A stretch of 64,000 bases of DNA from Lachnospiraceae bacterium (GTDB taxonomy: Bacteria > Bacillota > Clostridia > Lachnospirales > Lachnospiraceae). The notes below the pieces were generated by a model, which saw only the letters and a program-made list of their open reading frames with translations, made no database searches and was not told the DNA's origin. Made by a program: the position numbers and the translations under genes. Shown piece by piece: positions 56,039 through 59,814 of the stretch. How positions within the stretch are numbered: the first letter of the stretch is position 1; each line of letters begins with the position of its first letter. The DNA is taken from the NCBI GenBank assembly GCA_017439675.1, contig JAFSIQ010000010.1, forward strand, positions 1 to 64,000, given 5' to 3'.

Positions 56039-56061
56039 TTATTGTATATGGAGAGATGCTT

Positions 56062-57321
56062 ATGAAGATAGTAATTATGGCAGGTGGCAAGGGCACGAGA
56101 ATTGCAGAAGTGAATTCCGAAGTACCAAAGCCAATGATTCCAATCATGGACAAACCAATATTAGAATACGAGATTGAGTGTATTAAGAAACAAGGATTTA
56201 CAGATGTTATTCTCGTTGTAGGTTATCTCGGAGAAGTAGTGCAAAATTATTTTGGTAATGGCGATAAATTCGGTGTTCACATAGAATATGTGGTGGAAGA
56301 GAATCCATTAGGAACAGCTGGTGCATTGTATTTATTAAAGGATAAGATACAAGATGATTTCTTGTTGTTGAATGGTGATATAATATTTGACGTGGATTTC
56401 CATAGATTTTATGAGGCACATAAAAAACAAGAAGGAATTGCAACAATTCTCACGCATCCCAATAATCATCCGTATGATAGTGGTATCATTGTCGCAGACA
56501 AGGACGGAAAAGTACTTAATTGGTTACACAAAGAAGATGAGAGATTGTGGTATCAGAACCGCGTAAACGCAGGACTTCATATGTTATCACCAAAGGTATT
56601 TGAGCGCTTTACAGAGCTTAAAAAGGTGGATTTGGATCGAGATGTGTTGAAGCCGTTGATAGCAGAAGGAGAGCTATATGTATATGATTCTCCAGAGTAT
56701 ATCAAGGATATGGGTACACCTGATCGTTTCTATGCTGTGACTGAGGATATTAGAACAGGTAAAGTTGAGAATAAAAATTTATCAAATAAGCAGAAAGCCA
56801 TTTTCTTAGACAGAGACGGTACCATTAATAAATATGTAGGTTTTTTAAGAAATATTGATGAGTTTCAATTGATAGATGGTGTGGCGAATGCAATTAAGAA
56901 GATTAATCAAAGTGGTTATCTAGCTATTATAGTTAGCAATCAACCTGTGATTGCTAGAGGAGAGGTTTCTTTGGATGAACTAAACGAAATCCATAATAAG
57001 ATGGAAACATTATTGGGACAAAACGGTGCATATGTAGATGCAATATATTATTGTCCACATCATCCCGACAGGGGATTCGAGGGTGAAAGGCCAGAATATA
57101 AGATGGAATGCACATGTCGCAAACCTAAACCTGGTATGCTGTTAGCGGCTGCAGAGAAATATAATATTGATTTGCACCAATCGTGGATGATTGGTGACAG
57201 TAAGAATGATATTGAAGCTGGAAAAGCCGCTGGTTGTCAAGTTGTGTATATTGGGAGTGAAGAGATGAAAGATGAAAAAAAATGTACCAATTTATTAGAG
57301 GCGATAAATAAAATATTATAA
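56062..57321 (+). CDS. hddC: fusion of heptose-1-phosphate guanylyltransferase (HddC) and heptose bisphosphatase (GmhB), 419 aa
   Basis: Residues 1-235: sugar-nucleotide transferase (VIMAGGKGTRIAEVNSEVPK at the start, LLLNGDIIFDVDF near 105). Residues 240-419: HAD phosphatase with AIFLDRDGTINKYVGF near 249, IIVSNQPVIARGE near 292, the zinc loop CPHHPDRGFEGERPEYK followed by CTCRKPKPGM near 350, and MIGDSKNDIEAG near 377. The two halves catalyse the last two steps to GDP-heptose: removal of the 7-phosphate and transfer of GMP. ATG 56062 after GGAGAG. Confidence 0.88.
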   Translation: MKIVIMAGGKGTRIAEVNSEVPKPMIPIMDKPILEYEIECIKKQGFTDVILVVGYLGEVVQNYFGNGDKFGVHIEYVVEENPLGTAGALYLLKDKIQDDFLLLNGDIIFDVDFHRFYEAHKKQEGIATILTHPNNHPYDSGIIVADKDGKVLNWLHKEDERLWYQNRVNAGLHMLSPKVFERFTELKKVDLDRDVLKPLIAEGELYVYDSPEYIKDMGTPDRFYAVTEDIRTGKVENKNLSNKQKAIFLDRDGTINKYVGFLRNIDEFQLIDGVANAIKKINQSGYLAIIVSNQPVIARGEVSLDELNEIHNKMETLLGQNGAYVDAIYYCPHHPDRGFEGERPEYKMECTCRKPKPGMLLAAAEKYNIDLHQSWMIGDSKNDIEAGKAAGCQVVYIGSEEMKDEKKCTNLLEAINKIL

Positions 57322-57346
57322 TACATTAATGTTGTATGGAGGGTGT

Positions 57347-58672
57347 ATGAAGAAAATAAGTATATCTAATTATGGTCCTATACATGACATAGAACTCAAA
57401 TTAGAAAAAAGTATGAATGTTGTAATTGGTCCGCAGGCATCAGGAAAGAGTACACTGGGAAAGAGCATATATTTTTGTAAAAAAATTAGAGATTATTTTG
57501 TCGAATACGTTACAACAGAGAAAAATTTTATAAATACACATGATAATGAACTTTATATTAATTTTTTGAAATATATAAGAAGAAAATATATGGGATGCTT
57601 TGGAACTACAAAACATCTGAATAATTTTGAAATAGTATATCATTATGGGAATAAAAAAAAGGTAATGATTACTTTAGATAAAGGTTTTGCTTATTTCAAA
57701 TTTTCGTCGGAATTATCGGAAGAAATTAAAAAAATCTTGTATGAGGTAAAAGTGCTATATAGGAGTAATTGGGAGTCTAATAATCCAGAATATGTCTTGG
57801 ATTTTTCATACATTGTGCAATTTTACGCTAGTATGAGACAGCGATATGAGAATATAGCAAAGATTTTGTTTGAGGATGATTATGAAGTTTTATACATTCC
57901 AGCAGGTAGGAGTTTGCTATCAGTATTGTCTGATCAGCTAGATGTCGTTGATACATCTATTTTAGATTTACCTATGCAAGATTTTATTGAAAGGATTAGA
58001 TTGACAAAGAAAAATTTTGGAACAAAATTAGATTCGGTAGTCTCTAATTATCTCAAAACGGTTCAAGGGCAAATTAAAAATGCAAACTTAGATATTGCAC
58101 AAGAGCTGATTCACAATATTTTAAAAGCGGATTATGTTAGTAATACAGATGGAGAGAGATTATATTTTGATAAGGAGCGATGGGTCAAATTAATGTATGG
58201 CTCATCTGGACAACAAGAGTCGTTATGGATATTAATGCTATTGTTTCTCATTATACTTGAAAACAAGAAAACATATGTGATTATAGAGGAGCCAGAGGCT
58301 CATTTGTATCCTGTTTCACAGAAATATATGGTAGAATTAATTGCGTTAACGATGAATTCAAGTGCGAGTCAAGTGTTTATCACAACGCACAGTCCATATA
58401 TATTAAGTTCATTGAATTTGTTGATTCAGTCAAGTAAAGTGGAAGATAATGGTCGCCTTAAAGGGGAAGAAACGGTTATTAAACGACAATTGAGAATTTC
58501 TCCATCATTGATAGAGGCGTATAAAATTGATGGAAGGCAACCATTTAGTTTTGTATCTATAACAGATACTGAACTTGGTTTGATTAATTCAATGGAGATA
58601 GATACAATATCGGATGTTATCAATGAAGAAACAATGAAATTAATCGATTTGGAGATAAAGTATGATTTGTAA
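57347..58672 (+). CDS. AAA/OLD-like ATPase, candidate defence component, 441 aa
   Basis: Walker A VVIGPQASGKSTLGKS near residue 25-40 directly after a short beta strand (ISISNYGPI). Signature-like YGSSGQQESLWILML is near 284, Walker B VIIEEPEAHLYP near 310, and the His switch VFITTHSPYILSS near 344. The middle is a long helical insert. The layout is that of OLD-type and PtuA-like ATPases without the C-terminal TOPRIM nuclease, so it needs a partner effector. It overlaps the next gene by 11 bases. It separates the fused hddC-gmhB gene from gmhA and is visibly more AT-rich than its neighbours, which suggests insertion. ATG 57347 after GGAGGG. Confidence 0.75.
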   Translation: MKKISISNYGPIHDIELKLEKSMNVVIGPQASGKSTLGKSIYFCKKIRDYFVEYVTTEKNFINTHDNELYINFLKYIRRKYMGCFGTTKHLNNFEIVYHYGNKKKVMITLDKGFAYFKFSSELSEEIKKILYEVKVLYRSNWESNNPEYVLDFSYIVQFYASMRQRYENIAKILFEDDYEVLYIPAGRSLLSVLSDQLDVVDTSILDLPMQDFIERIRLTKKNFGTKLDSVVSNYLKTVQGQIKNANLDIAQELIHNILKADYVSNTDGERLYFDKERWVKLMYGSSGQQESLWILMLLFLIILENKKTYVIIEEPEAHLYPVSQKYMVELIALTMNSSASQVFITTHSPYILSSLNLLIQSSKVEDNGRLKGEETVIKRQLRISPSLIEAYKIDGRQPFSFVSITDTELGLINSMEIDTISDVINEETMKLIDLEIKYDL

Positions 58673-59159
58673 TAATTTAGATAGCTGTATTAAAAATATA
58701 GTCCTCGGATGTAAAAATGAATCTAGATGCATTCACCAAAGGGATAAACGAAAGAATATCACTTGTAAAGAGAATAGAAAAAGATATAATTTGGAAAATC
58801 CAGATTTGTATAATGTAACAGTATATCATGTGGATGGTGGCATTATATATAACGAATCAAACATGGCAAAGTGTGACTATTTGTATGTTGTAGATGATGA
58901 AATGCATCCTTCGGCTATTTTTATCGAATTGAAAGGTAAAAATATTCATCATGCAATGCAACAACTTCATTCTACGATGATGCAATTTTCTTCTGAGTTC
59001 AAACAATATAGGAAATATGCAAGAATTATATGTAGTGCGGTACCTCGCATAGCAAATGATCCTAATACTTTGAAGCTGATGAAAGAGATGAAAAAACAAA
59101 ACATTGATATTAATATGCAGGAGCATTCTATGTCAGAGGATTATTCAACATTGGTGTAA
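58662..59159 (+). CDS. hypothetical protein with PD-(D/E)XK-like motif, partner of the ATPase, 165 aa
   Basis: Not a family I can name with certainty. The first 37 residues contain five Cys (3, 9, 17, 23, 35), possibly a metal site. Then CDYLYVV with D72 and IFIELKGKN with E89-x-K91 give the spacing of a PD-(D/E)XK nuclease core. HAMQQLHSTM supplies a following Gln helix, as in RecB-like nucleases. It starts inside the end of the ATPase gene, so the two are co-translated. The arrangement suggests an ATPase-nuclease pair; nuclease activity is inference. Confidence 0.55.
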   Translation: MICNNLDSCIKNIVLGCKNESRCIHQRDKRKNITCKENRKRYNLENPDLYNVTVYHVDGGIIYNESNMAKCDYLYVVDDEMHPSAIFIELKGKNIHHAMQQLHSTMMQFSSEFKQYRKYARIICSAVPRIANDPNTLKLMKEMKKQNIDINMQEHSMSEDYSTLV

Positions 59160-59181
59160 TTTGAAGGAGGTAGTATTGGTA

Positions 59182-59814
59182 ATGAATTTGATTCTTGATG
59201 AATTGATAAAACGCTATCCGGCGTTGGATGTATGTAAGAATGATATATACAAAGCCTATGAGATTATGGTAGAAAGTTATCAACGCAAGGGAAAACTTTT
59301 AGTAGCTGGCAATGGTGGAAGTGCATCTGATTCAGAACATATTGTTGGCGAATTAATGAAAAGTTTTGTGTTAGAGAGAAAGTTAGACGAAGAATATGCG
59401 GCAGAACTAATGAAGGTGGATGCAGAAATAGGGGCAGAGTTAGCTGACAAGTTACAAGGGGCATTACCGGCCATTGCATTAGATGGACATATCGCATTGT
59501 CTACCGCATATTTAAATGATGTGGATCCGTTATTAGGATTCGCACAACAGGTGAATGGTTATGGAATTAAGGGTGATGTATTCTTAGGCATTACAACCTC
59601 TGGAAATTCAAAAAATATTCTTTATGCTAATACAGTTGCAAAGGCAAAAGGGATGAAAACGATTGCACTTACTGGTAAAAATGGTGGTAAGATTAAAGAT
59701 ATGGTAGACGTGGCTATTGTTGTTCCAGAGAACGAAACGTATAAGATTCAAGAATATCATTTGCCGATTTATCATTGTTTGTGCTTAATGTTGGAAAAAT
59801 TTTTTTTTGAATGA
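59182..59814 (+). CDS. gmhA: sedoheptulose 7-phosphate isomerase GmhA, 210 aa
   Basis: Converts sedoheptulose 7-phosphate to D-glycero-D-manno-heptose 7-phosphate, first step of heptose synthesis. SIS domain: VAGNGGSASDSEHIVGEL near residue 36, then ALPAIALDGHIAL near 95 and GITTSGNSKNILYA near 130, with QEYHLPIYHCLC near the C-terminus. The start is not certain: ATG 59182 is 11 bases from AAGGAGG at 59164-59170, while in-frame TTG 59176 is 5 bases away. Completes the GDP-heptose set despite the two inserted genes. Confidence 0.9.
   Translation: MNLILDELIKRYPALDVCKNDIYKAYEIMVESYQRKGKLLVAGNGGSASDSEHIVGELMKSFVLERKLDEEYAAELMKVDAEIGAELADKLQGALPAIALDGHIALSTAYLNDVDPLLGFAQQVNGYGIKGDVFLGITTSGNSKNILYANTVAKAKGMKTIALTGKNGGKIKDMVDVAIVVPENETYKIQEYHLPIYHCLCLMLEKFFFE

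Follow-up and report, generated by a model that had tools for sequence, protein, structure and literature searches.

The closest described relative of the gene pair considered here is WonAB, which is encoded by the WASA-1 prophage of Vibrio cholerae and in which an OLD-ABC ATPase acts jointly with a PD-(D/E)xK nuclease to block phage ICP1 (PMC12137116). As presented in that report, translation stops while the genomic DNA remains intact, rRNA or tRNA is suggested as the target, and WonB toxicity requires WonA, a simple antitoxin role being excluded. Its authors see WonAB as related both to PD-T4-4 and to an operon termed 'OLD-ABC ATPase + novel REase', and they credit the in silico finding of this kind of system to Krishnan 2020, whose operon homologues, by the same account, encompass all of the WonAB homologues found. 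A PD-(D/E)XK domain is listed for PD-T4-4 in PMC10952713, and PMC12839542 reports pairs of an OLD-ABC ATPase with a PD-(D/E)XK nuclease from within BREX loci. An OLD-type ABC ATPase domain is also present in PARIS, Septu and Gabija, in which it is joined with a TOPRIM, an HNH and a helicase partner, respectively (given here partly after PMC12839542 and PMC10952713 and partly from general background).

We analyzed two adjacent genes, A and B, in a 64,000-nucleotide stretch of Lachnospiraceae DNA (the window; assembly GCA_017439675.1, contig JAFSIQ010000010.1, positions 1 to 64,000), together with their relatives, which are cited by locus number (L009, etc.) where needed. Judged from its sequence, the pair is a real defense candidate and not a new kind of system, and we propose, by analogy with WonAB, that it probably acts by abortive infection through translation shut-off (a probability of roughly 0.77).

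The Locus and Its Operon Setting

Genes A and B lie within a heptose operon (Table 1), of which a GHMP kinase gene, putatively hddA from its Pfam domain, is a further member. The two genes fill nearly the whole of the inserted segment, leaving spacers of only 25 bases between hddC-gmhB and gene A and 22 bases between gene B and the ATG of gmhA. The start codon of gene A is closely preceded by GGAGGG, and an alternative start at 57329 is also possible according to the open reading frame listing. The GC contents of genes A and B are 30.2 and 30.7%, respectively, versus 36.2–37.5% for hddA, hddC-gmhB and gmhA.

Table 1. Coordinates of the gene pair and of the adjoining operon genes in the window.
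Feature	Position	Strand	Remarks
hddC-gmhB fusion, upstream operon gene	56056..57321	+	NTP_transferase + HAD domains (Pfam); gene name putative
Inserted segment between hddC-gmhB and gmhA	57322..59181	+	Relatives without the pair: L141, L142, L145, L147
Gene A, OLD-type ABC ATPase (WonA-like, PDC-M29A-like)	57347..58672	+	441 aa; no TOPRIM match (Pfam)
Overlap of genes A and B	58662..58672	+	11 bases, from the sequence; translational coupling probable
Gene B, small PD-(D/E)XK-type nuclease (WonB-like), predicted	58662..59159	+	165 aa; predicted catalytic residues D72, E89, K91
gmhA, downstream operon gene	59182..59814	+	SIS domain (Pfam); gene name putative

A search for the hddC-gmhB protein across 299 host-family genomes recovered it from 30, the genome of the window included (E ≤ 1e-60). 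At 4 of the 29 other loci, those given in Table 1, a strong gmhA match directly follows hddC-gmhB, overlapping it as ATGA in L145 and L147, and at four more (L153, L162, L164, and L165) a weaker match does so, while at the remaining loci gmhA is located elsewhere or was not seen. Because gmhA directly follows hddC-gmhB in some relatives, the pair is an insertion. Nothing convincing was found by way of flanking repeats around the inserted pair, and the window contains no tRNA genes. The preliminary description of this DNA was accurate with respect to the 11-base overlap, the separation of hddC-gmhB from gmhA by the pair and the higher AT content of the two inserted genes, and the comparison that it proposed, with loci in which gmhA is not separated, gave the four strong cases above. 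It had further suggested a cargo insertion into a variable surface locus: the insertion is borne out by the four uninterrupted relatives, while the surface locus does not hold as a rule, many relatives being situated in other operons.

The ATPase Encoded by Gene A

The best Pfam matches of gene A are AAA_15 (1.2e-29) and AAA_21 (5.1e-17), and all seven of the families listed for it are either ATPase-type or DUF2813. By sequence, the closest solved structure is the OLD-family 6p74 (9e-6), followed by retron PtuA chains. The protein contains a Walker A motif (K34), a signature motif SSGQQ (286–290), a Walker B motif IEEPE (313–317) and H348-S-P-Y, and in an alignment of 63 homologues the positions of Walker A, R188, SSGQ, EEPE, and HSPY are invariant or at least 90% conserved. 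The OLD-like ATPase with a complete set of motifs that had been read from the window is therefore confirmed, the one correction being that the Walker A lysine, placed earlier in the 'K37 region', is K34. Among the homologues, the annotated start of a plasmid-encoded ATPase (WP_229092700.1; L009:2713-3927) omits Walker A, which is restored by an in-frame start farther upstream.

The PADLOC models that match gene A are AriA (3.5e-35), PDC-M29A (3.5e-21), and PD-T4-4_A (7.4e-20), so that in the window copy AriA outscores PDC-M29A. PDC-M29A matches all 63 of the homologues (best 2.3e-55), as do two AriA models (best 8.8e-42).

The Predicted Nuclease Encoded by Gene B

Homologues of gene B were aligned from 78 of 87 references, the nine left out being short, cut, split or duplicate ones, and D58, D72, E89, L90, K91, G92, and Q101 are invariant in all 78 rows. 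The invariance of E89-L-K91-G is partly biased because the scans for homologues searched for an ELKG pattern; D58, D72, and Q101 lie outside the patterns, and the 10 seeds found without the ELKG pattern show the same invariant residues. A separate set comes from loci found through the ATPase, 27 of 35 of which have a gene B (chosen by profile, with some loci overlapping earlier ones): all 27 keep the seven residues, with A replacing C71 in four. In the main alignment the core cysteine C71 is present in 77 of the 78 rows. The N-terminal cysteines are more variable, with C23 in 60 rows and C3, C9, C17, and C35 in 21, 16, 17, and 22 rows, respectively. The Cys-rich N-terminus noted in the preliminary description is thus real, and the nuclease-like core of D72...E89-x-K91 that it saw in the 165-residue partner is upheld by the invariance of these residues.

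Matches to profile libraries are weak. The single Pfam match of gene B in the window is to HSDR_N (E = 0.051, residues 65–124), and among the 78 members HSDR_N_2 is matched by 14, PDDEXK_9 by seven and HSDR_N by four (best 5.8e-5), with many other families matching a single member each. The PADLOC model PDC-M29B matches 36 of the 78 (best 3.4e-11), while gene B in the window has no match to any PADLOC model, PDC-M29B included, or to NCBIfam. NCBIfam and PHROGs gave scattered weak matches to the 78 proteins, and the one PHROG match of the window copy (0.0019) is labelled host range and adsorption. A search of the PDB by sequence returned 22 EGFR chains (E 0.18–0.44), which we take as chance, and none was returned up to E 5 with the gene B profile. 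The invariant motif and the weak Pfam matches support the assignment of gene B as a PD-(D/E)XK nuclease with a predicted fold.

That the commonest Pfam relatives of gene B are HsdR-N type DNases raises the alternative that it cuts invading DNA and not host RNA, as an ATPase-licensed restriction or backup DNase, which would still be phage defense. BREX-associated pairs of this type are indeed discussed as backup effectors in PMC12839542, but the two-gene unit includes no protecting methylase and, in WonAB, it is translation that stops and genomic DNA that stays intact (PMC12137116). We therefore consider DNA cutting unlikely, although with some chance of being correct.

Pairing and Distribution of the Two Genes

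Gene B was found in 7 of the 299 genomes of the host family (its own included), in two plasmid records and one phage-collection record, and in 126 genome-contig stretches (of which 80 were kept) and six IMG/VR loci. An ATPase gene is located directly upstream on the same strand at 92 of 96 gene B loci (L009–L103 and the window), a set that includes duplicates and is reduced to 82 when gene B is kept under 0.85 similarity. At the four exceptions (L024, L055, L091, and L098) the DNA is cut at that point, and hence none of the 96 loci has gene B without gene A in uncut DNA. The reverse search gave 10 ATPase places in 9 of the 299 host-family genomes, again including its own (E ≤ 1e-25), and nine of the ten are followed by gene B, in two cases (L137 and L139) as a weak match. 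In IMG/VR, 26 loci were found with the ATPase alignment, at least six of them on contigs already seen, and by profile 19 have gene B and seven do not (L117, L121, L124, L127–L130, with L124 near a contig end). A search with the L079 ATPase gave two phage records and no plasmid.

Some of the ATPases have other neighbors. At L135:1495-3356 an ATPase of the family is followed not by gene B but by a Schlafen (SLFN) AlbA_2 gene near the contig end, a possible partner swap. PDC-M29A-type ATPases at L117:6001-7907 and L127:1860-3744 are accompanied by partners of about 200 residues in which E-T-K or E-L-K motifs can be seen by eye; these partners have no Pfam or PADLOC match and fall outside the gene B profile, and they may represent a divergent partner family. 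The partner in L128 appears helicase-like, also by eye.

The ATPase and the nuclease are a stable two-gene unit. In the neighborhood survey that the preliminary description proposed, the pair occurs as one unit in contexts that are unrelated to each other, and even the closest kin of the window pair have differing neighbor genes. Mobile settings include two plasmids, one of the MOBV type (L010) and one other (L009), as well as IMG/VR contigs. In an ATPase tree of 63 rows, from 64 usable references, the window groups with five Clostridia rows (100/98). According to record titles, some of which are perhaps wrong (L048 is titled Beijerinckiaceae and groups with Chitinophagales), the tree spans seven phyla, namely Bacillota, Bacteroidota, Pseudomonadota, Campylobacterota, Cyanobacteriota, Nitrospirota, and Spirochaetota.

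Compact, overlapping genes with copies on plasmids and inside core operons (between sdhA and sdhB in L037, L042, and L048) could also be read as a selfish addiction module of the toxin-antitoxin type that is kept inside operons, with phage defense secondary or absent. Such a reading is very unlikely, as WonB is toxic only with WonA, which excludes a simple antitoxin role in that system (PMC12137116), and as the family includes an ATPase without gene B (L135) and, in uncut DNA of the 96 loci, no gene B without gene A.

Comparison With Known Systems

Gene A and gene B resemble WonAB, as described in PMC12137116, in that two genes form one operon, the first for an OLD-type ABC ATPase that lacks TOPRIM and the second for a small PD-(D/E)xK nuclease, which in the window is a predicted one. 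The predicted key residues K34, R188, E315, and H348 of gene A have as their counterparts K34, R182, E300, and H333 of WonA (AWB73975.1), which are reported there as essential together with K71 of WonB (AWB73976.1). In both ATPases the arginine lies between Walker A and Walker B, and the spacing from E to H is 33, whereas the K-to-R and R-to-E spacings are 154 and 127 here but 148 and 118 in WonA. The nuclease lysine, K91 in the window, ranges from position 63 to 126 across the 78 homologues, a range in which WonB (71) falls. The two pairs differ further in that gene B has extra N-terminal cysteines and that the window pair is nearest to Clostridia kin, while WonAB is reported mainly from Gram-negatives. 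The 'OLD-ABC ATPase + novel REase' of Krishnan 2020, by its description in PMC12137116, consists of the same domain pair.

The second described counterpart is PDC-M29 of PADLOC-DB 2023, the A model of which matches every ATPase homologue and gene A itself, and the B model of which matches nearly half of the nucleases, although not the window copy. PDC presumably stands for 'phage defence candidate', and the name PDC-M29 was not found in papers in a limited literature search. On account of the PDC-M29 matches, the WonAB anatomy and the reports of BREX pairs, the pair is best filed under this described, WonAB-like kind, an assignment made from where the motifs lie, from WonAB as published and from the PADLOC models rather than by alignment. 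Hence the claim that the pair is undescribed does not stand, given that PADLOC holds it as PDC-M29 and that WonAB was published in 2025 (PMC12137116).

Other systems with related ATPases were considered and set aside. The ATPase model of PD-T4-4, an E. coli system (PMC9519451), covers residues 3–421 of the 441 in gene A, but its nuclease model, PD-T4-4_B, has no match to gene B in the window and matches only three of the 78 relatives (best 0.0087). Septu would require an HNH protein (PtuB), for which there is no match in gene B or among the 25 Pfam families shown for the 78 relatives, and PARIS would require a TOPRIM protein (AriB), likewise unmatched in gene B and in the families shown, even though AriA is the best model for gene A. 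Gabija and the OLD nucleases do not fit a gene A without a TOPRIM match and a partner without a helicase match. The earlier view that the partner is unlike those of Septu, Gabija and PARIS was therefore sound.

Genomic Neighborhoods of the Relatives

The location of the pair inside a heptose operon, together with glycan neighbors at several relatives (L009, L014, L016, L018, L025, L027, and L036), might suggest that it serves glycan synthesis or the regulation of the heptose operon. Using a phmmer panel (E ≤ 1e-6, within 1.5 kb), however, glycan neighbors were found at 10 of 82 pair loci versus 16 of 164 random gaps from three host-family genomes, a rough control in that all three genomes were chosen from hddC-gmhB carriers and every random-gap match below 1e-12 is from just two (L204 and L206) of 20 stretches, both in one genome, L204 being near that genome's own hddC-gmhB. 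A first, wider panel (also 1.5 kb) included an ABC-transporter query that matched unrelated genes and was dropped for the count above; it had matches at 12 of the 82 pair loci, at 30 of the 164 random gaps, and at none of 20 hsdR loci. Compared with the hsdR loci, and with this panel only, the pair does seem closer to glycan genes. Gabija was unusable as a control, being present in only 3 of the 299 host-family genomes. Specificity of the pair for glycan loci is thus unsupported, and since some relatives have a heptose operon that lacks the pair and copies elsewhere lie in a BREX locus, between sdh genes or between pyrH and frr, a glycan role is highly improbable.

In L014, one of the glycan loci, a second AAA_21 ATPase gene overlaps a gene of 352 residues without a Pfam match (L014:13302-15486), about 3 kb from the pair, and this is perhaps another ATPase-effector pair.

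The BREX setting is that of L013, in which BrxC is followed by the pair and then by an Eco57I-type (pglX-type) methylase and PglZ (L013:3215-16155; Pfam), and it supports the WonAB-like reading because such settings are reported for pairs of OLD-ABC ATPases and PD-(D/E)XK nucleases (PMC12839542). None of the other 81 loci matched the BREX panel within 8 kb.

Several copies are located among housekeeping genes. On three Chitinophagales-like contigs the pair is flanked by sdhA and sdhB, and no gap is longer than six bases (L037:3252-4801, L042:6866-8419, L048:2771-4441). The three ATPases are 33–45% identical and the three sdhA proteins 77–81% identical, and the ATPases group together in the tree (92/77, not starred); an old insertion followed by vertical descent and fast divergence would explain these copies. 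In Emticicia aquatica (L082:5976-9034) the pair separates a putative pyrH, of the amino-acid-kinase family, from frr, which encodes ribosome recycling factor. The pair also lies behind aconitase in L052, L059, and L064 and before mfd in L086; the Pfam basis for these core-operon neighbors is L042, L082, L059, and L086. The gene upstream is co-directional with the pair at 57 of 65 loci, above 50% (p = 3e-10) and similar to the 265 of 323 for ordinary neighboring genes (p = 0.33), and the downstream gene is so at 45 of 65. The co-direction of the upstream gene argues against random orientation only.

One might go further and regard the family as an 'operon-embedded' defense unit that has hardly any promoter of its own, or none, and is under selection to lie in the same direction as the core operons that hold it (heptose, sdhA/sdhB, pyrH/frr, and BREX). 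We think this improbable. If true, host expression would set the dose of the unit, or the unit would monitor the shut-off of its operon by phage, and long residence with fast divergence would mark a host-guarding sensor and not a passenger. A limited search of the literature on defense genes in housekeeping operons found nothing on operon embedding and is no proof of absence.

Proposed Mechanism and Implications

We propose that the pair, which looks like a portable ATPase sensor joined to a small nuclease, is a candidate for phage defense that would operate much as WonAB does. It may be transcribed by read-through from the heptose operon, because gene A starts so closely behind hddC-gmhB. The gene A protein, as an ABC-type ATPase, probably forms a dimer around ATP and, by analogy with WonA, would hold the gene B protein in a complex, sense infection or a phage event and control the nuclease. 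Once activated, the gene B protein may stop translation in the cell, with cleavage of tRNA or rRNA as a possible means, and we infer from WonAB that this stop would abort the infection.

The finding would place a WonAB-type system in the Clostridia, and the family to which it belongs is a near-constant two-gene unit across, by record titles, seven phyla. The deep alignment of gene B yields clear candidate catalytic residues for the nuclease, and the distribution of the pair raises the question of why its copies settle inside core operons.
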